Virus record (IMG/VR): IMGVR_UViG_3300010400_000006
Location: 1 to 64,000 of that record
Source of the DNA: a virus
Length of the DNA stretch: 64,000 bases
Strand: one strand, 5' to 3'
The notes beneath the pieces are model-generated. The model had not been told where the DNA came from and ran no database searches. It was given only the letters and a program-made list of their open reading frames with translations. Of this stretch, positions 32,632 to 53,405 are shown in pieces (the first letter of the stretch is position 1; every line of letters starts with the position of its first letter). Made by a program: the position numbers and the translations under genes.

Positions 32632-35469
32632 TCACAGATGACGGAACACCCAGTACCCATAGTGACCGTTTCGTGCGGCTGTGCCGTTTCCGATAGTGAA
32701 TCCGGTGAACGTGTCGTTATAGACGTTCACGACCGTGCCCGCCAACCAGCCCGTGTAGTCCGTCCACTGGGCGATCACCGTCATGTTAGACTGCATTGTT
32801 GCACCATATCCGATAACCGCAGCGCCACCGCCAGCTACGGCCCGGCCGACGTACAGCGCGCTGGCTCCGCCCTCATTGGCGTCCTTCTGGAAGTAGCCCT
32901 TCAGTGTGATCTCAGTGTTGGTGGTGATGCGAATGTACGCGTCGCTCCCAGACGGGAGGGAAATCCCGCACCACCAGTCAGTGTTCCTGTTCCATGTGAA
33001 TCCACCGCTGCGGTCTCCGTTGGTGTCCAAACGCTCGGAGTTGGCGTTGTTGACGTCGGCGTTGAACCAGCCGCCCTTCATGTTACCCGTGCCGACTTCC
33101 GAGTACCCCAGGCGAGCTTGAGTATCGAACAGCCACAACGTAGTCTGTCGCGTTCCGCCTGTGGTCGTTCCGCTGTTGATGCCGATGGTCGGAGTTGCGG
33201 CGTTCGGAGCGTTGATGTAGGAGTACGCTGTGCCTGAGGTGGGGAAGAAGCGAATCTCCGGGATGTAACTGCCACCGGAAGCCTGGTTGATGATCACACG
33301 GTTGCTTGACAGACCAGATTGCACCTGGCCCACAAACAGGGCGTCGGCTCCGTGGATGAAAGACTGCAGCACATTGCTGGCATCGTACTGTTCGATGCCC
33401 GTGTTGTTGATCTCAACGCGCTGGCCGGTCAGTGCCGTGGTGATTCTGGCCGCCATCAGAATCGCAGCACTGATCGTGCCAGCCGTGATCTTGCTAGCCG
33501 TCAGATCCGAGATGTGTGCACTATCCACCAACAGCGCAGTTGAGGAGACCGCCGTGCTCGGGCCGCTGGCATTGCCGGCATTGTCGACAGCGATAACCTT
33601 GAAGTACACAGGACTGGCGTTGTCCAGATTGAATGTTCCAACAGCAGGAATCGAACCGAGGATCATGCCGGCGTTGGCGGGCAACCTGCCGATCAGCGTG
33701 GTGTTATCGGGCGCGAAGATGCTAGTTGCGCCACCGTGCACCTCTAGGTGATGCAGGTCTAGGTCCAGATTGAATGTGCCGCCGCCAGAAACACCCAGAT
33801 CATGTCGAACCTGCACAGCCAGTGTGCTAGCTGCTACGGACGGCGGAGCCGGAACGCTCGGCGGCAACGTGTCACCAGAGGTCTGGAAAACCTCGGTGGC
33901 ACTCCAAGCACTGACGTTCGGCGGAACAGCCGCGTCAATCGCTCGAATCTGTGCCTCGTATGGCATGTTCGGAGGCAGATCCTGTAGCAGGTATTCCAGC
34001 TGGTCCCAGCCGACCTGCATGTACTGCCAGTTGCCTGGGATGTAAGTGATAGGGGCACCATACGTGCCCGCAGCCAGTTGGGTGTGCGTGTATCCCGCCA
34101 TCGCGGCGTGCGTGACCGGAAACAACGGAGTGGCCGACGACCGGTACCTGAGCTCGAAGTGGTCGCCATCCAGGATCGTAGATCCATCAGTGTTGTCTGG
34201 ACGGTCCCACGCCAACTGCACTTGTGCACGACTTTCGCCGTGGTCTGACTGGTACACCGCATAGCTGAACGGCGGGTTCCAAGTCGGCGCGGCTGGCACA
34301 GATGTGTCCGCAACCGGCCTGCTTCCGGCCGGACCGCCGTCTGCTGGGCCCACAAGCGCCCGGTTGTAGCCGCCAACCGTGAGCGTCGTGCTGCCGCCTT
34401 CGGGCAGCACATAGTCTGTCAGGTCGTACCAGACACCATCATTGTCCCGGAACGCCGCACTCATGCCGCCGCTAACCGGCCAGTTCAGCTCGGTCAGCTT
34501 GAGCTGCATGGGATACAGAACTTCGCCGTTGAAGTACACTTCATTCAGCGAGTTGATGACGCCGATCTCAGGGTCATACACATTGACATAGTCCCCGACC
34601 TCGACATCTCCGCTCACGTCGTATTCGGAAGTAGACAGCGTGATAGCATCGCGCGAACCGCTGAACCGGTTCAACTGGAGCTGTGCGCGTGCATCTGCGT
34701 TCGTTGCGTCCGTAGTGGACTCAGAGATGATTCGAGTCCGCTTGACCGCATTGCCCCGGATGTCCTTGAACGGGTTGACCAGGATGTCCTTGGTGGCCGT
34801 AACCGTTGCAGCCTGCTCGCCCTCCGCCAAGAGCATGACACGCGATGTGAAGTCGTCTACGTCTGACTGCGTCCCCATGTCTCCCGCCAGGGCGCGGGCG
34901 AACATCTCCTGGCCAGAGCGGTTACGCAGCACATAGACCTTGGGGATCACGGTGAACAGGTCCGATTCGAGACCGGCGTCCAACGTGGCGTCACCATTCA
35001 CGCGCCATACGGCATCCAGTGTCTGGCAGACGTAGTCGATGGCCTTGCGACGAGTGACGTACTGGAAGCTTCCAGTGAATGTCTTGGCCAGGTTGAAGAT
35101 GGTGCCCTCGGCCACAGCTCCGCCGACACCTGCGTTCGGAAGCAGAGTGCGAATCGTGTTCTGGAAGCTGGTGCCAGCGAAGGTCACCGGGGTCTCGAGA
35201 ATGTCGCCCTTGTCCTCGGAATCTCCCAGCCAGACCGCCATTCCCTGGCCAGAGATGGCGTACGAGTCGGCCCCGTTGTCCCTGCCGAGATAAACGCCGG
35301 TATAACGGCCGGACCGAAGTAGCGCATCCCCGTGCGCAATGTTGAGACGACCCGTGTGGATAACAACGTGACCGAAGAACTTGAGTGCATCAAGGATGGA
35401 CTTGGGTGTCGCAGGCGAAAGTGACAGACCCCAGGAGCCGAGCCCGCGGAGTGTCTCAACTACTGCCAT
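32632..35469 (-). CDS. Large minor tail protein with fibronectin-type domain
   Basis: 945 residues. N-terminal tail-hub-like domain (MAVVETLRGLGSWGLSLSPATPKSILDAL), then a beta-rich region with an early ITRP-like segment, a fibronectin type III-like part at about residues 395-510 (PTWNPPFSYAVYQSDHGE, later PYEAQIRAID), and a glycine/asparagine-rich C-terminus typical of receptor-binding tails. It follows the Dit-like gene and probably forms the baseplate hub plus fibre base. Confidence 0.7.
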   Translation of the reverse strand: MAVVETLRGLGSWGLSLSPATPKSILDALKFFGHVVIHTGRLNIAHGDALLRSGRYTGVYLGRDNGADSYAISGQGMAVWLGDSEDKGDILETPVTFAGTSFQNTIRTLLPNAGVGGAVAEGTIFNLAKTFTGSFQYVTRRKAIDYVCQTLDAVWRVNGDATLDAGLESDLFTVIPKVYVLRNRSGQEMFARALAGDMGTQSDVDDFTSRVMLLAEGEQAATVTATKDILVNPFKDIRGNAVKRTRIISESTTDATNADARAQLQLNRFSGSRDAITLSTSEYDVSGDVEVGDYVNVYDPEIGVINSLNEVYFNGEVLYPMQLKLTELNWPVSGGMSAAFRDNDGVWYDLTDYVLPEGGSTTLTVGGYNRALVGPADGGPAGSRPVADTSVPAAPTWNPPFSYAVYQSDHGESRAQVQLAWDRPDNTDGSTILDGDHFELRYRSSATPLFPVTHAAMAGYTHTQLAAGTYGAPITYIPGNWQYMQVGWDQLEYLLQDLPPNMPYEAQIRAIDAAVPPNVSAWSATEVFQTSGDTLPPSVPAPPSVAASTLAVQVRHDLGVSGGGTFNLDLDLHHLEVHGGATSIFAPDNTTLIGRLPANAGMILGSIPAVGTFNLDNASPVYFKVIAVDNAGNASGPSTAVSSTALLVDSAHISDLTASKITAGTISAAILMAARITTALTGQRVEINNTGIEQYDASNVLQSFIHGADALFVGQVQSGLSSNRVIINQASGGSYIPEIRFFPTSGTAYSYINAPNAATPTIGINSGTTTGGTRQTTLWLFDTQARLGYSEVGTGNMKGGWFNADVNNANSERLDTNGDRSGGFTWNRNTDWWCGISLPSGSDAYIRITTNTEITLKGYFQKDANEGGASALYVGRAVAGGGAAVIGYGATMQSNMTVIAQWTDYTGWLAGTVVNVYNDTFTGFTIGNGTAARNGHYGYWVFRHL

Positions 35470-43969: not shown

Positions 43970-44368
43970 TCAGTCGTCGGCGAGCTGCTCGTCTTCCTCG
44001 GCCGCGCGGATCTCGCGCAGCTTGTCGAGCACGCGCCGCTGAAGCTCCGGCTTCTTGCCGCTGGCATCGAGCGGCGGGACCTGCTCCTTCAGCCACTTCT
44101 GGAGCTGGTCGTACTTCAGCTCCTGGACCGCCAGAACGTCGTCCGGGTCGTCCTCCGGGTCGGCGTCCTCCGGCACGAACTCCTGGCCCTTGGCCTCGGC
44201 CTCCTTGCGCGCGGCCTCGAGCTCGTCGGTCTTGCGCTTGTCCTCGGCAGCCTTCGTGCCGTAGTGGAGGTCGTTGGCCTCGATCTCGGCGGTCCTGTTT
44301 CGAGCCTCCAGGTACGCCCGGTCGTCGTCGGTCAACGGACCGTCGAAGATGTCGATTTCGCGACCCAT
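43970..44368 (-). CDS. SAP-domain-like protein downstream of the capsid gene, 132 residues
   Basis: MGREIDIFDGPLTDDDRAYLEARNRTAE..., long charged helix, then YDQLQKWLKEQVPPLDASGKKPELQRRVLDKLREI, which fits a SAP-type DNA-binding helix pair (LxxWL...GxKxEL...L). Same gene position is often taken by small head proteins. The SAP match is inference. Confidence 0.55.
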   Translation of the reverse strand: MGREIDIFDGPLTDDDRAYLEARNRTAEIEANDLHYGTKAAEDKRKTDELEAARKEAEAKGQEFVPEDADPEDDPDDVLAVQELKYDQLQKWLKEQVPPLDASGKKPELQRRVLDKLREIRAAEEDEQLADD

Positions 44369-45639
44369 CAGAGAAGCCCTCCGCCCCTGGTGTAGGCGGT
44401 CGGGATGTCGTACGAACCCGACGCCTTGATCTGGACCACGGATGCACCCGCGCGCTGGCGAATGCCGGTGCCGAACGCCCGCGAGTAGTACGAGTCGACC
44501 AGCGGGTAGCGCTGCTGGTTGCCCGGCAGCAGCCGCAGGCCCCGGTACGCCGTGTTGGCGTGCTCCCGCAGGCCCACAGGGTTCTGCAGGTTGCCGGTGC
44601 CGCCCGACCCCAGGACCAGCAGGTAGCCCGGCGGGATGTAGTCCTCCTCGACGAGGAGAGCGTTCTTGTAGGAGCCGACGACCGGCAGGCCGTTCCAGCT
44701 GTTCGGCGGCCGGACACCGATCAGGCCCTCGGCGTTCGGGACGAACAACGCGGGCTGGTTCGGCGCGGGGATGAAGTCGTAGTTGCAGACCGCACCGTTG
44801 ATGGTGGCACCCGCGCGGAACGTGCGAGCGACCGCCATCTGGGCCGAGTTCATAAGCACGACGAAGGTCGTGCCCTGCTCCTGGCCGTAGCCGTGCTCGG
44901 CGATCAGGTTGATGCCGTCTTCGATGTCGATCGACTGGAATGCCGCCGCGCCGGAGACCAGGTAGTGGTCGTGGGTGCTCAAGAACGTGGTGTTCTTGTA
45001 CGTCGGCGGGATCGTGCCGTCGTTGTTGTACAGCGCGTACACGTTGTACGGCTGGTTCCGGATGTCCGCCGTGCGGTTCCGGTTGTCGAAGATGGCTTCC
45101 ATGACCTTGCGGAAGACCAGCCGGTTGTCCGCCGTCAAGATGGCGTTGTGGACGGCCTGGACCGCGCGGGCGTCGGCATCCCTGAGGTACTTCCAGGTAT
45201 ACCGAGTCGCCAGGTCGTAGTCCTTGAAGTCGTACGCCATCTGGAAGTAGTCCTGGCGGATGCCGACGGCCTTGGGGATGCCGTACTCGGACGCTTCCTC
45301 GAACTCGACGTCGCCGACCTGCGGAACCGTCTCGATCAGCTGGGTGACCGGGTAGGTCATCAGCGACACGATGGTCTGGCGGCGAGCGTTGAAGATCTCC
45401 AGCGTCTGCTGGAACTCAGCCCAGAGCGCGTTCGGATCGACACCGTCCGCCAGGGCGTACAGAATGTCGCCCTGGTTCTGGTAGCCGCCCTCGGCCCCGA
45501 GGATTTCGGCGAACAGGCCCAACTCGTCCAGATTGACGAGTTCGCGGCCGCCGGTCGCTTCGCTGGCGAACGGAGCCTGGATCAGCATCGGGTCGAACAG
45601 CGGGTTGCTGCGACCGCGCGAGATCGTGGATGTGGTCAC
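44368..45639 (-). CDS. Major capsid protein
   Basis: 423 residues. GTG start (VTTSTISRGRSNP) six bases after AGGAGG; the longer frame to 45765 runs into the next gene. Contains the extended arm and hairpin pattern of HK97-fold capsids, e.g. PQVGDVEFEEASEYGIPKA, FDNRNRTADIRNQPYN, and the late conserved-looking segment PLVDSYYSRAFGTGIRQRAG. Placed after scaffold and decoration genes. Confidence 0.8.
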   Translation of the reverse strand: MTTSTISRGRSNPLFDPMLIQAPFASEATGGRELVNLDELGLFAEILGAEGGYQNQGDILYALADGVDPNALWAEFQQTLEIFNARRQTIVSLMTYPVTQLIETVPQVGDVEFEEASEYGIPKAVGIRQDYFQMAYDFKDYDLATRYTWKYLRDADARAVQAVHNAILTADNRLVFRKVMEAIFDNRNRTADIRNQPYNVYALYNNDGTIPPTYKNTTFLSTHDHYLVSGAAAFQSIDIEDGINLIAEHGYGQEQGTTFVVLMNSAQMAVARTFRAGATINGAVCNYDFIPAPNQPALFVPNAEGLIGVRPPNSWNGLPVVGSYKNALLVEEDYIPPGYLLVLGSGGTGNLQNPVGLREHANTAYRGLRLLPGNQQRYPLVDSYYSRAFGTGIRQRAGASVVQIKASGSYDIPTAYTRGGGLL

Positions 45640-45652
45640 TGGTTGCCTCCTC

Positions 45653-46111
45653 TCAGGCCGAAGCGGGGATCTTGGCGTAGCGGCAGATGAACCGCGCGCC
45701 GGTCTTCGTGCTGACCTGCGCGGTGTAGCCCAGCGGCACCGAACCCGAAGGCTGCGTGGCGCCACCAGTGCCCGTACCGGCGATGATCAGGCCGGTGGCT
45801 GCGGTGACGTAGTACTGGAACGCCGCAACCCCCAGCACGCCTGCCGAGGTGATCCAGTCGATGACGTCGCCCTTGGACATGACGTCCACGATGTCGCCGG
45901 CCTTCCACTTCGCGGTGGAAAGCTGCGCCGACTGGTTCAGGATCAGCAGACCGATGATGCCAGTCTGGCCGGCACCCTTCACGATCTGCCCGGAGGCGTT
46001 CAGGCCCACGCCGTACGGCACACCAGCAACGGCGTCAGCCCGAGGCCAGTCCGCCGCGAGCGGGTGCCGCTCACCATTCGCGTAGGGCTCGTACTTGTCG
46101 TACTTCGCCAC
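45653..46111 (-). CDS. Capsid decoration-like protein, 152 residues
   Basis: Small and beta-rich: MAKYDKYEPYANGERHPLAADWPRADAVAGV, then GIIGLLILNQSAQLST and VYVTAATG-like strands. Its position between scaffold and capsid fits head decoration proteins. Inference from order and size. Confidence 0.55.
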   Translation of the reverse strand: MAKYDKYEPYANGERHPLAADWPRADAVAGVPYGVGLNASGQIVKGAGQTGIIGLLILNQSAQLSTAKWKAGDIVDVMSKGDVIDWITSAGVLGVAAFQYYVTAATGLIIAGTGTGGATQPSGSVPLGYTAQVSTKTGARFICRYAKIPASA

Positions 46112-46132: not shown

Positions 46133-46900
46133 CTATTGAACTGGGACTCCCTGGTTCAAGACCGGGTAGTCGACCAGCAACTTGTTGCGCGTCGCCGTCT
46201 CTTTTCCTTCCGACTTCCTGGCTCCGGATGCACCACCAGAAGCTCCCTTGCGAACGGGCGGCTTCTTGTCGGCACCATCACCATCGTCGTCGTTGGCGTT
46301 CACCAGCAGGAACGGCTTGTCCTTGGCCAATTCCTTGATGGCTGCTGCCAGCCCCTCCACGGAACCGTCGTCGCCGATCTCGAGCTCGTACTTGGAATTC
46401 AGGATGTCAAGCACGAGATCCGGGTCCTGCCACTCGTACTTCTTCTTGCCATCCGTGAACTTCAGGAACGCGTTCTCGACCTTCGCGGCCAGCAAGTCCT
46501 CCGAGACCTTCTCGTACTTGGCCTTGAAGTCCTTGGCGTCGCGAGTTGCGACTTCCAGATCCGACTTGTCCTTGTCGGACCGCTCCCTGAGCTGGGCTTC
46601 CAGAGCCTCCGCTGCCTCGCGCCGTTCCTTGTTCTCGGCGTTCAACCGCTTGATCTTCTGGGTGTCCGTCTCGTTGGCCGGCGCACGACGCTTCAGCTTC
46701 GGAGGCTTCTCCTCCTTGGGCTTTTCGCCCTCGGGATCTTCCTCTTCTTCCTCGTCGTCCTCACCGCCACCGTTCTCGTCCTTTTCCGGATCGTCTTCAC
46801 GACCCTGGATGGAGTAGAACGGGGAGCCATCCTCGAAAAGACCGAGGGGCTTGATGGAGCTAATCAGGCTCTGCCTGACGACTCCGCGCTTCCTGCGCAT
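46133..46900 (-). CDS. Scaffolding protein
   Basis: 255 residues, highly charged. N-terminal LGLFEDGSPFYS, an acidic stretch, a helical coiled-coil core (AENKERREAAEALEAQLRERSDKDKSDLEVATRDAKDFKAKYEK) and a basic C-terminal end. This is the usual make-up of scaffolds. GGAGG precedes the start, with TAAGAT at 46925. Confidence 0.75.
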   Translation of the reverse strand: MRRKRGVVRQSLISSIKPLGLFEDGSPFYSIQGREDDPEKDENGGGEDDEEEEEDPEGEKPKEEKPPKLKRRAPANETDTQKIKRLNAENKERREAAEALEAQLRERSDKDKSDLEVATRDAKDFKAKYEKVSEDLLAAKVENAFLKFTDGKKKYEWQDPDLVLDILNSKYELEIGDDGSVEGLAAAIKELAKDKPFLLVNANDDDGDGADKKPPVRKGASGGASGARKSEGKETATRNKLLVDYPVLNQGVPVQ

Positions 46901-46984: not shown

Positions 46985-47863
46985 TTACGCGTGGTATGTG
47001 GAATTCAGATAGTCCGAGAACTGGCCCTGTTCGAAGGCCTGCTGAAACTGATCTGCGTCCATGGTCTTCGGCGTCACATAGCACAGACACTGCGGATGTG
47101 GCTTCTTCGGCACCTGTTCCTTGGGGAATACCCCTGGGCCTAGGCCGAACTCGGCTCGCGCGTATAGATCGCATTGATCGGGTTTCCCGCCGGGGTGCGA
47201 CTTGCTGAGGTTCCAGTCCATGCCTAGATTCCAGGGCTTGTCCTCATTATGCACTATGGCCTGTGCATGGTACGTGTTGTTCAGTTCAGTGCGTGCGAGT
47301 CGACGAGCCGCGTACGCCACGCCACCACGGACGTCCGGCTGGATGTGCTGTCTGACTGCTTTGGCCAGCTCGGCGGGCGACGCTCCCCGCCCGAGGGCCG
47401 AGTTGATCGTCGTCTCCATCCATCCCTTGCTGAGCGCAGCCGAACGGTACACTTGCCTGCTCAATGGAATGGCCTCGCTGAATACCCGCCGGAGCATGGC
47501 GTCCACGTTCCGGTCAGCGCTAGACAGCATAGCGTCTCGCATTGCCGCGCGATCTTCCGGATCCGGATATGCTCGACGCAGCAATGTCTCGTCCCAGTCG
47601 AAGCTGTTGTTCAGCGCCAGCAACTGCGCCTCAATGCGACCGGCCCGCACGGTCTGTCCGGTGAGGTTCCAGAAGTTCTGCAGAACTCTTCCTAGCGCGG
47701 TGCGTGCCCCGATGATCTGCCCCAGCCGAACCTGTGCGCCGATCTTCCCAGTGTCCCCGGCGAACAGTGCTTCGATAGCAGCGTCCGCGTCCTTGGCGGC
47801 CTGCTCCAGGATCAAATTGATCTTCATGTCAAAGTGTTGCTGGAGCTCGATGTAACTGGTCAA
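46985..47863 (-). CDS. MuF-like head morphogenesis protein
   Basis: About 292 residues from a TTG at 47863; an ATG at 47827 (MKINLILEQAAK) is possible and the start is uncertain. The end shows the MuF C-terminal pattern: ARTELNNTYHAQAIVHNEDKPW, then CDLYARAEFG and HPQCLCYVTP with paired His/Cys. MuF proteins enter the head with the DNA or aid portal assembly. Next to a JAMM protease. Confidence 0.75.
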   Translation of the reverse strand: MTSYIELQQHFDMKINLILEQAAKDADAAIEALFAGDTGKIGAQVRLGQIIGARTALGRVLQNFWNLTGQTVRAGRIEAQLLALNNSFDWDETLLRRAYPDPEDRAAMRDAMLSSADRNVDAMLRRVFSEAIPLSRQVYRSAALSKGWMETTINSALGRGASPAELAKAVRQHIQPDVRGGVAYAARRLARTELNNTYHAQAIVHNEDKPWNLGMDWNLSKSHPGGKPDQCDLYARAEFGLGPGVFPKEQVPKKPHPQCLCYVTPKTMDADQFQQAFEQGQFSDYLNSTYHA

Positions 47864-47867
47864 CCAG

Positions 47868-48248
47868 TTACGTGGCGCAGGTCGTGCGGTGGACCTGGAC
47901 GGGCGAGCTGCCACTGGGGAACTCCCACTCAACTACTGCGTCACTGGTGATGATCCAGTAACGGAATCCAACAGGGGCAAACGTCTCGTCTTCGTCACTC
48001 GGATGCTCCAGGCCACCAGGATGGCTGTGGTACACGCCGATGATCTGGTCGAAATGGTGCCGGTACACCGCCAGCTGCTCACCTGGATCCATCTTGAACT
48101 GCCTGCTACCTGCAGCGACGTTCGGGACCTGCCAGATGTCCGGCCCATGCTGTAGCTGTACGACAAACCCGCAGATCTCCTTGTCTGGAGACCTGCGGGC
48201 TATCGTGACCAACCTTACCGCGACATCCCTGTCGAGTGGATCAGTCAT
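47868..48248 (-). CDS. JAMM/MPN metalloprotease
   Basis: 126 residues. Contains the full JAMM signature: Glu24 in KEICGF, then His74-x-His76-x7-Ser84-x2-Asp87 in VYHSHPGGLEHPSDED. Such proteases cleave isopeptide or peptide bonds with zinc. Phages carry them mostly fused to tail proteins; here it is a free gene in the head module between the MuF-like gene and small basic proteins, so it could be a prohead protease. ATGA overlap with a tiny upstream gene. Confidence 0.85.
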   Translation of the reverse strand: MTDPLDRDVAVRLVTIARRSPDKEICGFVVQLQHGPDIWQVPNVAAGSRQFKMDPGEQLAVYRHHFDQIIGVYHSHPGGLEHPSDEDETFAPVGFRYWIITSDAVVEWEFPSGSSPVQVHRTTCAT

Positions 48249-48319
48249 CTCTTCTTCTTCTTGCCCTTGTTGCGCTTGAGGCGCTTGTCCTTTCCGGTGC
48301 CTCTGCTGGTGCCTGCCAT
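48245..48319 (-). CDS. Tiny very basic peptide, 24 residues
   Basis: MAGTSRGTGKDKRLKRNKGK... ends in five basic residues; strong AGGAGG site and ATGA overlap with the protease gene. Might be a DNA-binding or capsid peptide. Confidence 0.55.
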   Translation of the reverse strand: MAGTSRGTGKDKRLKRNKGKKKKR

Positions 48320-48326
48320 GTTCCTC

Positions 48327-48776
48327 CTAACCTCCGACCGGTCGTCTACGCGCCTGCCGGGGCGCACGGGGCTGTCGAACCTTACGCCCATGCGTTGCAG
48401 CCCTGGCACTACTCACCCTTAGCTGCGGTGCACGCCGCCGCGCTCCCTGCCGGTTGACGCTCAACCCACCGACCGATGCTTGCTTGTCCCGCAGAAGTCC
48501 GGAGGCGAACTTGCCCACCTTGTTCTGAGGAATTCTATCGACGAGCTTGTCGATGCCCGCCGAGACCTTCTTCTCGAGGAAACTCTGGCGATCCCCCGCC
48601 TTCTCCACGCGAGCCAGTGCGCCGACGTAGATGTTCACCTTGCCCGGAATCAGCGGAAAGGTGCGCCCGTACTGCAGGGTTGCGCTGCGCAGGGAAACCC
48701 GGCCGGTCAGCTTGCCCTTGCTGGTCCAACGCCCCTTGCTGTCACGAGGATGTAGCGAGGGATTGTACTTGACCAT
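48327..48776 (-). CDS. Small basic head-module protein, GRW-tag family
   Basis: 149 residues. MVKYNPSLHPRDSKGRWTSKGKLTGR has the tag [FY]NPxxxRDxxGRWT shared with four neighbours. The rest is basic, ending in an Arg-rich tail (RKVRQPRAPRQARRRP). No known domain. Likely packaged in the head or bound to DNA. Confidence 0.7.
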   Translation of the reverse strand: MVKYNPSLHPRDSKGRWTSKGKLTGRVSLRSATLQYGRTFPLIPGKVNIYVGALARVEKAGDRQSFLEKKVSAGIDKLVDRIPQNKVGKFASGLLRDKQASVGGLSVNRQGARRRAPQLRVSSARAATHGRKVRQPRAPRQARRRPVGG

Positions 48777-48779
48777 CGC

Positions 48780-49034
48780 TCACCTCTTTTTCTTCTTGGG
48801 GTTCTTTCGGATCGCGATTCCTGCACCTGCCGCAGCACCGGCGATCGCCCCGACAGGACTTCCGAGCGTGGCGAAGAATCCAAGTCCTCCGCCGATGAGT
48901 GCGGCGCTTCGGACTCGCTTCCGATTGTTCTTGCTGGTCCTGGACCCGCTTTTCGAAGCGGCGCCACCACCCTTGGTCCACTTCCCGTTGCGGTCACGCT
49001 TCTGGTTCTTGTTGAACCTGCCGAACCGGGCCAT
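48780..49034 (-). CDS. Small basic glycine-zipper protein, GRW-tag family
   Basis: 84 residues: MARFGRFNKNQKRDRNGKWTKGGG, then a Gly/Ala-rich hydrophobic span SAALIGGGLGFFATLGSPVGAIAGAAAGAGIAI, then a poly-Lys end. The span is a glycine zipper, as in membrane-penetrating proteins. ATG overlaps the upstream gene's stop. Confidence 0.72.
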   Translation of the reverse strand: MARFGRFNKNQKRDRNGKWTKGGGAASKSGSRTSKNNRKRVRSAALIGGGLGFFATLGSPVGAIAGAAAGAGIAIRKNPKKKKR

Positions 49035-49378
49035 CAGCCTCTCCGTCCACGTCGAAGTGCGGCTTCCGCGGCGGCGATACGCCTCTTGGAAACCCTCTTG
49101 TCGATGCTGTTTCCAACGAGGCTGCCGGCAAGAACTCCGACTGCAGCACCGCCGAAGGGTTGCCCGATCGGGGCTCCCAGCACAGCTCCGAGCACCCCTC
49201 CGACCTTGGTGCCCCTCTTGCTGTACTTGTTGGGGTCCTTGGTCGTGAGAAGAATGGCGCCGTTGGAAAGCCTGCCCTTCTTGTTCAGCTTCTTGCGGGC
49301 CGAGGAGGCGCTGCCGCTCGTCCACCTTCCGTTCTTGTCGCGCTTCTGGCGCGGATTGAATCTGCCGAAGCGCCCCAT
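49034..49378 (-). CDS. Small basic glycine-zipper protein, GRW-tag family
   Basis: 114 residues: MGRFGRFNPRQKRDKNGRWTSGSA, a basic linker, then VGGVLGAVLGAPIGQPFGGAAVGVLAGSLVG (glycine zipper) and a basic end. Nearly the same tag as the two flanking genes. TGATG overlaps on both sides. Confidence 0.72.
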   Translation of the reverse strand: MGRFGRFNPRQKRDKNGRWTSGSASSARKKLNKKGRLSNGAILLTTKDPNKYSKRGTKVGGVLGAVLGAPIGQPFGGAAVGVLAGSLVGNSIDKRVSKRRIAAAEAALRRGRRG

Positions 49379-49812
49379 CAGACCTTCCTGCCGCTCATCG
49401 AGGAGATGTTGTACACGCCACCGCGCTTCTTCGCGAAATTGGCCGGCGCTCTCTTGGCCACACTGATTCCGAATGTGGCTGCTCGCCTGGCGCGCTCGTA
49501 GTTCTTCTGGTTGGAGGTGATCTTCTGCTGTGTCAGGAATTGCAGTCTGCTGTCCAGGCTGCTGAGTGCCCCGCCGAGGGCCGGGAGTGCCAGGGGCGCC
49601 AGTGCAACAGCGACGGTCAATGCCACCTGCTTGTTGCTCAGCGGCTTGCCGGTCCTGCTGTTAACCGGCCTCTTGGGCACGAACAGAGCCTTGCCGATCG
49701 CCTTGGCGCGAACTCCGGCACGACTGCCCCTGCTCCCTGCCGAGGAACCGCCGCTGGTCCATCGACCGTGGCTGTCCCGCTTCTGGTTGGGATTGAACCT
49801 GCGACGTGCCAT
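49378..49812 (-). CDS. Small basic membrane-like protein, GRW-tag family
   Basis: 144 residues: MARRRFNPNQKRDSHGRWTSGGSS, a basic region, a hydrophobic span QVALTVAVALAPLALPALGGAL, and a basic helical end. One-base overlaps on both sides link it to its neighbours. Confidence 0.72.
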   Translation of the reverse strand: MARRRFNPNQKRDSHGRWTSGGSSAGSRGSRAGVRAKAIGKALFVPKRPVNSRTGKPLSNKQVALTVAVALAPLALPALGGALSSLDSRLQFLTQQKITSNQKNYERARRAATFGISVAKRAPANFAKKRGGVYNISSMSGRKV

Positions 49813-49994
49813 CAGCGAACCCTCCTTCCCTTCACTCCCGAGTGCTTCGACTCAGGCAACCTGCGAAACCGCGTCACCTTGCCGCCTGCGGTCTTGTGAG
49901 CCTTCTCGTGGGCCCAGGGCTGCTTGGTTGCGAAGGCCCATCTCCACTGCTTCTTGGATTTGAACCCTCGGTAGCTGCCGCGCTTCTTCGCCAT
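49812..49994 (-). CDS. Small basic protein, 60 residues
   Basis: MAKKRGSYRGFKSKKQWRWAFATKQPWAHEKAHKTAGG..., with a KQWRWAF...AHKTxGG pattern that recurs in small actinophage proteins. Very basic, no tag. May bind DNA. Confidence 0.7.
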   Translation of the reverse strand: MAKKRGSYRGFKSKKQWRWAFATKQPWAHEKAHKTAGGKVTRFRRLPESKHSGVKGRRVR

Positions 49995-49998
49995 GGGC

Positions 49999-50262
49999 TC
50001 ACTTGCCCTTCTTGCCGAGTTTGCCCTTCTTGATCTTCAGGCCGGTGGTGACCTCGGCAGCACCCTCCTTGTAATTCTTGGAGGCTGCCTTGGTCGCATC
50101 CACCCCTGCGATGTTTCCACCAGAGGAAATCGCCGAGGTCTTCCTGCCAGACTGTCCACGAGCACCAAGACCTCGAGTGCCTTGCCTTGCCTTGACCCTT
50201 GCGCGCCCGCGCGAGCGGAAGCGCCCCAGAGAATCTCTCTCCTGGCTCTTGTTGAACGCCAT
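49999..50262 (-). CDS. Small basic protein with partial GRW tag, 87 residues
   Basis: MAFNKSQERDSLGRFRSRGRARVK: FNKSQxRDxxGRF is the tag with Phe for Trp. Then Gly/Ser-rich middle and a Lys-rich end. GAGGAG precedes the start and TAGGAT sits at 50290. Confidence 0.68.
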   Translation of the reverse strand: MAFNKSQERDSLGRFRSRGRARVKARQGTRGLGARGQSGRKTSAISSGGNIAGVDATKAASKNYKEGAAEVTTGLKIKKGKLGKKGK

Positions 50263-50297: not shown

Positions 50298-51863
50298 TTA
50301 TTCGGCCTGGTTGTCGGGATTGGATCCTGAGCCAGCGTTGTTCTCGGCGGCGGCACGCGTACCGTCCGGATCCAAGAGTACCTCTTGGGCCTTCGAGGCT
50401 GCCTCTAGCAGCTTGTCCTTGGCGCCGGGCGGATATTCGTAGCCTAGGTTGGCAACGGCGTCGAAGGCCATCTCGGGCGTGATCAGTGCAACTGATCCAG
50501 GGCCCGCCGGGGTCACCAGCAGGATGATCTCGTTGATCTTGGCTTCCCTGTTGACCGGCTTCGGGTCACCTACGCTCACCGTGGCGCGTGCGGCTGTGTT
50601 GTACTCCTCGAAGGCGGGGAACCAGTACACCACGATGTCGTATAGCATCTGGTTCAGCACGCCCAGCAGGATCCGCTCTTTCTCGCGGTTCTCCGCCAGG
50701 AGCGGGGCCATCTTCAGCTCGAGCGAAATGCCCGACTCGGCCAACGCCACATCCACGATGCCGGTCGCGATGTCCGGCGTTCCACTGCCTTGCTGCAGCT
50801 CGGTCATCATGGACTTGATGTGGTCCTGCATCGGCGCCACACTCGACACACCGTTCAGCCGGCCGATGGTGTTGCCGTCCGGGACCTCCAGGATGACTCC
50901 TGGCGAGATCTCGAGCGCGGTCTCGTTGCCGGCCGCGTCTGTGGGCGGACCTGCGTTGGTCCAGTACACCCCGAGCCCCTGCATGACCAGCGTGATGTCC
51001 TCATCGGACAGACTCTGGTTCATCGCAGCAACCAACGACTCGAAGCCCTTCAGCTCCGATACGCCGTACGCGAATCCACTCATCCGCAGGTTCGGAATCG
51101 GGTACACCGGCAGGGCGTGGATGCCCTCCAGCACCTTCTGCGGGATCTCCACCAGTTCCGCGTGCCGATAAGGCTTGAGCTCCTTGGCATCCAGCACTCG
51201 GTCGTCCCAGGCGTCCAGTTGCCAGTAGGTCAGTTCAGTGGTGATTTCCTGCAGACCATCCTCGCCGATGTCGCCCTTGCGGTACGTCTGGCGCTTGATG
51301 ACCTGCTTGCCCTTTTTGTCGGCCGGGTCCTTGATCAGCTCGGCAATGTGACAACCCAGGATCTTGTCTGGGTCATTCTCGTCAGTGATGGCGAAGTAGT
51401 TCGCCGGGTCCACCTCGATGATCGACAGCCGGTGCTCGGCAGGCTTGTCGTCATCCGCCAGGAGGTGCCAGACCTGGTCACCCTTCACCATCCCAAAGCG
51501 CTTCTGGTTGTCGAACTTGGTGTACACCAGCTCGCGCTTGAACAGGTCACCCAGTCGACGCTGGAGCTCTGCCTGTTCCCCGCCGGAGCCGAGCTTCGGG
51601 TCTACCAGGAAGTCGAAGTCCACTGCAAGAAATCGGGACTTGGCGTTCACGATCTTCCGCACAGAGGGGATCATGATCTCTGTGGGGTCCTCGCCGCGCT
51701 TCACCAGGGTGAAGGTGCCTGGCTCGTTCCAGTACATCCGCTCGTACAGATCGTACGCGCGCAGTCGAGCCTGGTCCTCCTTCTGCACCACATGCGCAGG
51801 TACCGACCCCTGCAGGTACTTGGTGGTGGACGACCATGGAGTGAGTGGTTCCGGGCTTGTCAC
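50298..51863 (-). CDS. Portal protein
   Basis: 521 residues. MTSPEPLTPWSSTTKYLQGSVP lead, then YDLYERMYWNEPG, and the stem/wing regions with ESLVAAMNQSLSDEDITLV and SPGVILEVPDGNTIGRLNGV, typical of SPP1-type portals in actinophages. An acidic C-terminal end (DNQAE). Lies directly after the large terminase gene. Confidence 0.82.
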   Translation of the reverse strand: MTSPEPLTPWSSTTKYLQGSVPAHVVQKEDQARLRAYDLYERMYWNEPGTFTLVKRGEDPTEIMIPSVRKIVNAKSRFLAVDFDFLVDPKLGSGGEQAELQRRLGDLFKRELVYTKFDNQKRFGMVKGDQVWHLLADDDKPAEHRLSIIEVDPANYFAITDENDPDKILGCHIAELIKDPADKKGKQVIKRQTYRKGDIGEDGLQEITTELTYWQLDAWDDRVLDAKELKPYRHAELVEIPQKVLEGIHALPVYPIPNLRMSGFAYGVSELKGFESLVAAMNQSLSDEDITLVMQGLGVYWTNAGPPTDAAGNETALEISPGVILEVPDGNTIGRLNGVSSVAPMQDHIKSMMTELQQGSGTPDIATGIVDVALAESGISLELKMAPLLAENREKERILLGVLNQMLYDIVVYWFPAFEEYNTAARATVSVGDPKPVNREAKINEIILLVTPAGPGSVALITPEMAFDAVANLGYEYPPGAKDKLLEAASKAQEVLLDPDGTRAAAENNAGSGSNPDNQAE

Positions 51864-51890: not shown

Positions 51891-53405
51891 TTAGCGCCCG
51901 TACCTGACCGGTCGCTTGCGAAGTCGTTGGGCTTGCTGTGCCGGGGTCAAGAAGAAGCCCTTGTAGAACCGCCCCAGTGCCTCGGGGAAGTGGTCGTCCT
52001 TCTTGAGTGGCAGCTCGTGAGCTAGTGTAGCCGGTTTGTCACCTGCATCCGGGTACCGGTAGTTCTGCATGTCCCGAATTCCGTTCTTGCAACAGCGATT
52101 GATCAGCAGATTCGGGACTCGCTCCGGATGTCCGAACTCCAGATGCGGGTTCTTGTACTTCAGGTCCTTGCGAATGGCGTCCACGCGATGCTTGACTTCT
52201 CCACCAGTGGACGAGATCGCAGTCTTCTTCAGGATCTGCTCAAGCTGTCGCGTGGAACCGGGGTCAGCTGGGTCTGGATAGAAGTTCTTGAGGTTGGCGG
52301 GGCACAGACCGCGCGCTTTGATCTCTTCGGCGAACTCGCTGGCGGTCAGTCCGGGCTCATATACCTCGTCGAGCACATGCACGTCACCCCAGGGGCCCAC
52401 CTGGATCAGCAACCACACGTTCGGGTTGGTGTATCCATAGTCCACTGCTCCGAAAGTCTGCCAGGCCGGGTTGAATTGCAGGTCTGCGACGTGCACTTCC
52501 TCGTCGAAGTCCTTGAACACCCGACCCACGAACTCCGTGAAGTCCGCACCGATCTCCTGATTGAACGATTCCTCGCTCATATCGGACATCAGCGACAGGA
52601 TCTCCCTGTCGATGGTCAGCCCATAGCGCTTAGCGATGTCAGCATGACTACGCTTCCCGCGCTGGAGCCGAAACAGGCGTTGCAGCTGTGTGACGTGCTC
52701 GTCTACAGTGGGCGTCTTGTAGACGTACGGGTTACGCCAGGCCGGCATCCGCCAGGATCGCCAGTCGGGGTGTTTCGGATCTTGGCCACGCGCCCAGTTC
52801 TCGTAGAACCAGTTCCTGCCCTCGGGCGTGCTCGTATGCAGCGACCAACCGTCGAAGTCCGCCAAGGTGGGACGAATGTATTTCAGCCACACTCGTTCCT
52901 TGAGCTTGGCCGCCTCCGACAGCACCACTCCGCGGAGCCCCTCGCCCACCAGCGTGTCGGGGTACTTCGCGGACTTGCCGTGGACCTGGTACGCCCCGCC
53001 CCACAGCGAGATGTGCAAGTTGCCATTGATGGGGTCGTTGTAGGTGCCCGGTCGATCGAATGGCACCTCGAGCTTCGACAGGTTGTTGTATAGGACCCGG
53101 AACTCCTTCTCGGCGTCCGAGTACTCTGGCCCCACGATCCAGAACTCACGGCGCTTGCCCTCTTCCTTGAGCTGCGCGCGCTGTGAGTGGGCGATGAATG
53201 CTTCCGGGAGCAGATCGTGCCCGCCGAGATCCGACTTTCCGAAACGACGTCCAGCAGCAACCACCTTGTTGCGAACATCAGTTTCTGCGATGATCTCTTG
53301 GCCAGGGTGTGGGTCCCATCCGACGCTGTCCTGGATCTCCCAGTAGTCCAGGCTGCCCTCGAGGTCTTCCCATGTGTCCTGGGGCCTGTCGTCGGTCACC
53401 GTCAT
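51891..53405 (-). CDS. terL: Terminase large subunit
   Basis: 504 residues. ATPase: Walker A variant VVAAGRRFGKSD (about 46-58), with the Walker B/coupling region near GVVLSEAAKLKERV and SLHTSTPEGRNW. RNase H-like nuclease: AVDYGYTNPNVWLLIQ with DEVYEP and a late acidic site. Drives DNA packaging. A TAGGAT box six bases before the ATG suggests a leaderless mRNA. Confidence 0.93.
   Translation of the reverse strand: MTVTDDRPQDTWEDLEGSLDYWEIQDSVGWDPHPGQEIIAETDVRNKVVAAGRRFGKSDLGGHDLLPEAFIAHSQRAQLKEEGKRREFWIVGPEYSDAEKEFRVLYNNLSKLEVPFDRPGTYNDPINGNLHISLWGGAYQVHGKSAKYPDTLVGEGLRGVVLSEAAKLKERVWLKYIRPTLADFDGWSLHTSTPEGRNWFYENWARGQDPKHPDWRSWRMPAWRNPYVYKTPTVDEHVTQLQRLFRLQRGKRSHADIAKRYGLTIDREILSLMSDMSEESFNQEIGADFTEFVGRVFKDFDEEVHVADLQFNPAWQTFGAVDYGYTNPNVWLLIQVGPWGDVHVLDEVYEPGLTASEFAEEIKARGLCPANLKNFYPDPADPGSTRQLEQILKKTAISSTGGEVKHRVDAIRKDLKYKNPHLEFGHPERVPNLLINRCCKNGIRDMQNYRYPDAGDKPATLAHELPLKKDDHFPEALGRFYKGFFLTPAQQAQRLRKRPVRYGR

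Follow-up and report, generated by a model that had tools for sequence, protein, structure and literature searches.

The locus considered here raises the question of why most of the small phage genes situated between a portal gene and a JAMM metallopeptidase gene begin with nearly the same short sequence, and of what such a sequence could do for the proteins that carry it. The window, by which we mean the whole stretch of DNA analysed, comprises 64 kb of a viral record of 67.5 kb and belongs to a siphophage-type virus. On the minus strand, the genes follow one another in the order portal, A, B, C, D, E, F, G, JAMM, MuF-like, scaffold, and MCP, and the features of the region, including the terminase, are the following:

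51891..53405, minus strand: terminase large subunit.
50298..51863, minus strand: portal protein (phrog_64, E 1.6e-37).
49999..50262, minus strand: gene A, basic protein of 87 aa, tag FNKSQERDSLGRF, N-terminus MAFNKSQERDSLGRF.
49812..49994, minus strand: gene B, small basic conserved protein of 60 aa, untagged (phrog_1375, E 4.6e-29).
49378..49812, minus strand: gene C, basic protein of 144 aa with a hydrophobic span, tag FNPNQKRDSHGRW, N-terminus MARRRFNPNQKRDSHGRW.
49034..49378, minus strand: gene D, protein of 114 aa with a Gly-zipper-like span, tag FNPRQKRDKNGRW, N-terminus MGRFGRFNPRQKRDKNGRW.
48780..49034, minus strand: gene E, protein of 84 aa with a Gly/Ala span, tag FNKNQKRDRNGKW, N-terminus MARFGRFNKNQKRDRNGKW.
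48327..48776, minus strand: gene F, protein of 149 aa, judged by sequence to have the body of the Konstantine gp15/Patience gp18 family, tag YNPSLHPRDSKGRW, N-terminus MVKYNPSLHPRDSKGRW.
48245..48319, minus strand: gene G, Lys/Arg-rich protein of 24 aa, untagged, with AGGAGG upstream.
47868..48248, minus strand: JAMM (Prok-JAB) metallopeptidase (HSHP...PSDED motif, E 6.4e-15).
46985..47932, minus strand: MuF-like head morphogenesis protein, start uncertain (phrog_17987, E 8.7e-60).
46133..46900, minus strand: scaffolding protein.
44368..45765, minus strand: major capsid protein, MCP (phrog_3990, E 1.6e-160).

Genes C, D, and E each start in a TGATG overlap with the preceding gene. Elsewhere in the window (32632-35469), a 945-aa protein encoded downstream of the tape measure gene showed only a weak match, to phrog_32308, a PHROG with no assigned function.

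The shared sequence, referred to here as tag A, has the consensus [FY]N[KP]x..[QH]xRDxxG[RK][WF] in A, C, D, E, and F, with the core RDxxG[RK][WF] and the lead [FY]NPxQ. The original prediction had counted five tagged genes among the seven small ones between portal and JAMM, and this count was confirmed. A six-frame scan of the 64 kb with a looser motif gave 12 matches, of which the N-terminal ones were those of A, C, D, E, and F only, all within about 1.5 kb; consistently, searching all 67.5 kb of the record by pattern confined the tagged genes to the portal-JAMM/MuF interval. Per gene, a shuffled N-terminus contained the motif with a probability of 0.0001-0.005, and five tags in one 7-gene interval would arise by chance with p ~5e-7, assuming about 90 genes. 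When the five N-termini were aligned, the tags were significantly alike, all ten pairs scoring above shuffles (0-1 of 500 shuffles reached the score), while among the bodies the same kind of comparison showed similarity for D and E but for no other pair. The description of the genes as a paralogous run is thus correct for the tags and for the D and E bodies, but not for the remaining bodies. As for the proposed tandem duplication that retained the tag alone, no bodies other than those of D and E are alike, so tag swapping or recombination is equally likely.

All the tagged proteins of the window are basic, with a net charge of +18 to +28. The membrane spans attributed to three of them were recovered in kind, as a Gly-zipper-like span in D, a Gly/Ala-rich one in E, and a hydrophobic one in C, but D matched the Gly-zipper profiles below the Pfam cut-off (E 7.5e-5, 22.9 bits against 27), and E gave no Gly-zipper Pfam match. 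A Pfam profile search found no head-structural or enzymatic effector domain in genes A-F, and a PDB search with the tag profile returned nothing at E up to 10.

Tagged genes also occupy the same locus in other phages (loci are cited by L number). The closest relative found, L033, matches the gene order of the window for A, B, C, F, JAMM, and MuF and lacks genes D and E at this locus. Its gene A ortholog begins MAYDPRKTARDALGRF, its gene B ortholog is 88% identical to ours, and its gene C ortholog shares 19 of the 22 N-terminal residues as against 30% identity in the body; what is conserved in gene C is the tag. Nocardia phage P3.1 carries three tagged genes at this locus (MARNYKRDGKGRF, MARNYKRDGRGRF, and MARRKFNPRQPRDLRGRW), as do L064 and L038, and L165 carries at least three. 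In L026 (165-1429), F is present as two near-identical tandem copies that flank a truncated C gene, through either a recent duplication or an assembly artefact. Gene B (phrog_1375), for which a structural model suggests with moderate confidence two short helices in residues 14-35, was found in the same interval of nearly all relatives, including Troll4 and L126-L137, where tagged genes were not seen. The portal relatives L125-L137 had no RDxxGRF-tagged gene, and neither JAMM nor MuF was seen by eye where the head region was covered. Directly after the portal, L126-L137 encode small proteins that begin MAKKSMKLGGGGRFAKVAKSAGGG, possibly a degenerate or third tag with GRF only in common.

A second N-terminal sequence, tag B (TPxRRAALRKAQxASARKRR), starts highly basic proteins (MTPx... 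or a variant) in the same interval of the mycobacteriophages Patience, DrLupo, Konstantine, and Predator. It forms arrays of 2-6 genes in Patience, DrLupo, L389, L391, L393, L398, L403, L405, and L407; in contigs other than the four named phages, as many as five tag-B genes follow one another. The 35 distinct tag-B proteins recovered have a net charge of +23 to +51, and 21 of them bear a hydrophobic Gly/Ala span, usually 6-25 residues past the tag, compared with 8% in shuffles. Such a Gly-zipper or membrane span was rejected as a general feature of tag A, being present in 8 of 109 tag-A proteins, the same as in shuffles. Separately, a mycobacteriophage-like contig of 64.5 kb encodes, upstream of its MuF gene, a basic protein of 546 aa whose N-terminus resembles tag B (L167:394-2034). 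Tag A and the tag-B arrays both have one feature of the T4-type capsid targeting sequence (CTS) as a functional class, a short N-terminal sequence common to proteins with different bodies.

The two tags appear in exchange on one body. In these phages, homologous genes occupy the last small-gene position before JAMM, and their F-type body carries tag A in Konstantine gp15, Predator gp14, DrLupo gp18, and the P3.1, L064, and L038 proteins, and tag B in Patience gp18. By tblastn, residues 50-239 of Konstantine gp15 align with Patience gp18 at 54.5% identity (E 1e-33), and the tag lies outside the alignment. Gene F of the window, whose body is 53% identical to that of its L033 ortholog, is, on sequence comparison, a divergent member of this phrog_12708 (Konstantine gp15) body family: a profile of the two bodies matched the seven-member family profile with an hhalign E of 1.7e-4 (probability 49.6%), and the family score was reached by 4 of 2000 shuffles. 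Synteny supports the membership, since gene F resembles the phrog_12708 proteins of cluster H mycobacteriophages and P3.1 in its position before M67/JAMM as well as in its tag and homologous body. A structure prediction for gene F from 8 sequences (pLDDT 42) was not interpretable. The family is labelled capsid maturation protease, a function that we rejected because no protease domain was detected in Konstantine gp15 or Patience gp18, neither of which had any Pfam match at E up to 1. The label head maturation protease on these two proteins (L139:3712-4485 and L138:5902-6507), which is also borne by the Patience MuF protein gp20, is for them a probable annotation error.

The tag was also searched for in other phages and proved common in viral contigs. 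All tag screens used regular expressions, which divergent tags escape. The short tag near a Met-Ala start was present in at least 119 loci, and N-terminally tagged ORFs (1-4) were found in 92 of the 119 listed. Most of the tagged ORFs listed encode strongly basic proteins in which MARxYKRDxxGRF is followed by a Gly linker and a basic body, and at most 8 of 54 such proteins had a PHROG match among the matches listed. On the same basis, an ORF of the phrog_145 portal family, a lineage other than that of the window portal, was present in 62 loci, with every same-strand tagged ORF at most 5.2 kb away, in loci whose size of at most about 14 kb limits the tag-portal distances visible. Among loci reaching 10 kb, 35 contained a tagged ORF and 26 of these also this portal, and among 82 neighbouring ORFs scanned 21 were phrog_145 portals and others encoded terminase, MuF/head morphogenesis, scaffold, or major head proteins, again among the matches listed. 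In a 257-Gb bacterial and archaeal collection, a slightly stricter pattern found 39 stretches, compared with the more than 119 found in viral contigs with a slightly looser one. The chromosomal copies have portal, S78, and terminase genes as neighbours, but also ordinary cellular genes (SHMT, SecA, AdoHcyase), and tag A is therefore not exclusively head-linked; some of these copies may be prophage remnants. Many of the chromosomal tagged proteins (L349-L387) come from Rhizobiales or other Alphaproteobacteria, often with the tag about 30-130 residues from the start, and several have no phage gene nearby; they are possible orphan effectors or prophage remnants.

In head-effector fusions, tag A sits between the two kinds of domain. 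The long form, [FY]NPxQPRDxxGRW, gave 77 distinct internal cases against 17 N-terminal ones, and some long ORFs contain several internal copies per protein. Head domains in the 77 internal cases comprised up to 15 of one portal PHROG, 15 of a head-maturation PHROG, and 14 of Pfam MuF, and effector domains comprised 8 ART (ADP-ribosyltransferase), 7 zeta toxin, single Acb1, SAM lyase, and NUDIX domains, and also GNAT and PBECR. In the fusions with known domain positions, a portal or MuF domain preceded a tag in 8 of 8 and the effector (ART, zeta toxin, or SAM lyase) followed one in 8 of 8, as the following examples illustrate:

L061: portal 18-336, tag 401-413, zeta toxin 505-694.
L054: MuF 182-310, tag 368-380, ART 493-642.
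L093: portal 2-226, tag 230-242, ART 266-382.

Tag A also stands at the N-terminus of proteins from L115 (zeta toxin), L105 (ART), and L030 (S78 prohead protease); in L030 and L027, a portal gene is near the tagged gene. A prohead protease must enter the prohead, and for this reason the tagged S78 protease is the best single hint at the role of the tag.

Virion data bear on one tag-B protein. Patience gene 15 encodes a 295-aa tag-B protein of this interval with a Gly-rich span. According to PMC7150772, which cites earlier work, gp15 is one of three prominent bands in SDS-PAGE of virions, next to gp23 (capsid) and gp31 (major tail), and mass spectrometry found gp23, gp15, gp4, gp29, and gp31. 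In the list as quoted there, gp15 is the sole tag-B protein, and portal and MuF are also missing, hence the list is a short one. The same paper reports that gp15 was tried as the minor capsid protein of Patience and that its model was unlike the density. In the accessible text on the 2.4 A Patience shell (PMC10635136), the shell is built from MCP, a minor capsid protein, and gp4, and gp15 goes unmentioned. The simplest reading is that gp15 is abundant but outside the ordered shell, as an internal protein would be.

Taken together, the comparisons suggest, with a probability of roughly 0.6, that A and C-F are internal-head cargo proteins sharing an N-terminal head-loading signal. During prohead assembly, RDxxG[RK][WF] with its [FY]NPxQ lead would dock onto some part of the portal-vertex or scaffold complex, and the strongly basic, otherwise unrelated bodies would thereby be co-packaged with the DNA. 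Upon ejection, C, D, and E, with their Gly/Ala or hydrophobic spans, could act at the host membrane. In this scheme, we infer the targeting by the tag itself, its binding partner, and ejection with the DNA. That the basic bodies neutralise DNA charge and in addition serve membrane insertion or anti-defence on ejection is a plausible but unsupported guess. The original prediction of a docking or packaging tag for varied cargo thus gains comparative support from the restriction to one interval, the same-locus arrays elsewhere, the tag exchange on one body, the head-effector fusions, the tagged prohead protease, and the tag-B virion protein. Several points count against it. The mass-spectrometry list quoted for Patience, short as it is, names a single one of its tag-B proteins. 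In the fusions, the effector is already joined to a head protein and a loading signal would be superfluous. Some chromosomal copies lie outside prophages and without phage neighbours, so that occurrence in non-head proteins, named beforehand as an argument against the proposal, was observed in part. Finally, the tag went undetected in 35 of 40 relatives with the same MuF and at least 4 kb upstream. We could tentatively extend the proposal, at somewhat below even odds, to regard RDxxGR[FW] as a portable signal that many unrelated lineages of tailed phages use for head loading and perhaps for ejection; it would mark basic arrays, a prohead protease, and injected effectors, could be replaced by the independent tag B, and would amount to a general address code for head cargo.

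The position of the tag at the junction of head and effector domains would also suit a processing site, at which a phage protease cuts the tag, frees effectors from portal and MuF fusions, and trims the small proteins, the N-terminal copies being remnants or removed at maturation. We consider this unlikely, given that few residues precede the tag in the MARxYKRDxxGRF proteins and that JAMM, the adjoining protease in the window, is missing from nearly all tag-rich loci. A JAMM-motif ORF was present in 1 of 75 such loci that were 7 kb or longer. The 40 MuF loci that had 4 kb or more of upstream sequence were gathered with a MuF alignment as query (the window MuF alone matched nothing); 25 had neither tag nor JAMM, 2 the tag only, 10 JAMM only, and 3 both. 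Tag and JAMM thus occur apart, and the suggestion that JAMM is the dedicated protease that removes the tag was rejected. A T4 targeting sequence is reported, in the title of reference 48 of PMC9024508, to permit proteolytic processing too, so both roles may hold.

It is decidedly unlikely, in our estimate, that effectors use the tag as a generic adaptor or linker motif with no head specificity, its proximity to the portal reflecting the usual site of phage effector genes. Copies in chromosomally encoded proteins some 200-300 aa long, several of them beside cellular genes such as those named above, and the repeated internal copies in some long ORFs fit such a motif, but the scarcity of the tag in cellular relative to viral DNA, the fact that in many phages it is strictly N-terminal and clustered in position, and the swap of tags A and B on one body do not. 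Very improbable, finally, is a role as assembly factors, for example basic partners of the acidic scaffold, or as DNA condensers without specific loading, in which the tag would bind the scaffold and the proteins would then leave. The strong positive charge throughout, the adjoining acidic scaffold gene, and the location of the genes between portal and scaffold agree with it, but Patience gp15 is abundant in mature virions, and the zeta-toxin, ART, and SAM-lyase domains that some tagged proteins carry better fit delivered effectors.

The head-loading reading matters because the proteins that phages carry in the head and inject are mostly unidentified, being small, basic, and poorly conserved. 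A sequence code predicting head cargo would allow candidate injected proteins, whether anti-defence, membrane-active, or host-modifying, to be listed directly from genomes. Because one body can bear either tag, targeting could be tested by a simple swap or reporter experiment in laboratory mycobacteriophages, and, if targeting is true, density left unassigned in known cryo-EM maps would be a place to look for a docking site.

As for the claim that no system of this make-up had been described, a literature search found no description of the tag itself, but the loading principle is already known from T4 internal proteins and P1 DarB; the tag appears unrelated to any described tag that we found. 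Gene F differs from the phrog_12708 label in being divergent and in lacking support for a protease function. The polyvalent proteins in the consulted passages of PMC5512222, in which portal and MuF are fused to ART, PBECR, and other effectors, are predicted to be packaged and injected, and those passages make no mention of a junction motif. Polyvalent, MuF-effector, and portal-effector fusions elsewhere carry tag A, whereas those of the window are small and basic and show no recognisable enzyme domain. The T4 internal proteins (IPI-IPIII, Alt) are diverse and have only a conserved N-terminal CTS in common, and IPI*, which has basic faces, counters host restriction (PMC3012670). The tagged proteins resemble them as small, diverse proteins sharing only an N-terminal sequence, a functional analogy for which we do not claim descent. 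They differ in belonging to siphophage-type genomes with portal, MuF, and scaffold, in the tag RDxxG[RK][WF], which is also found in head-effector fusions, and in being known here from sequence alone. In P1, the N-terminal 30 residues of DarB are enough to package a reporter, and DarB is believed to enter the cell (PMC9024508). This parallel, too, lies in the N-terminal signal and is one of function, not claimed as descent; no consensus is reported for the Dar proteins (PMC9024508), whereas that of tag A is clear across many proteins and phages.
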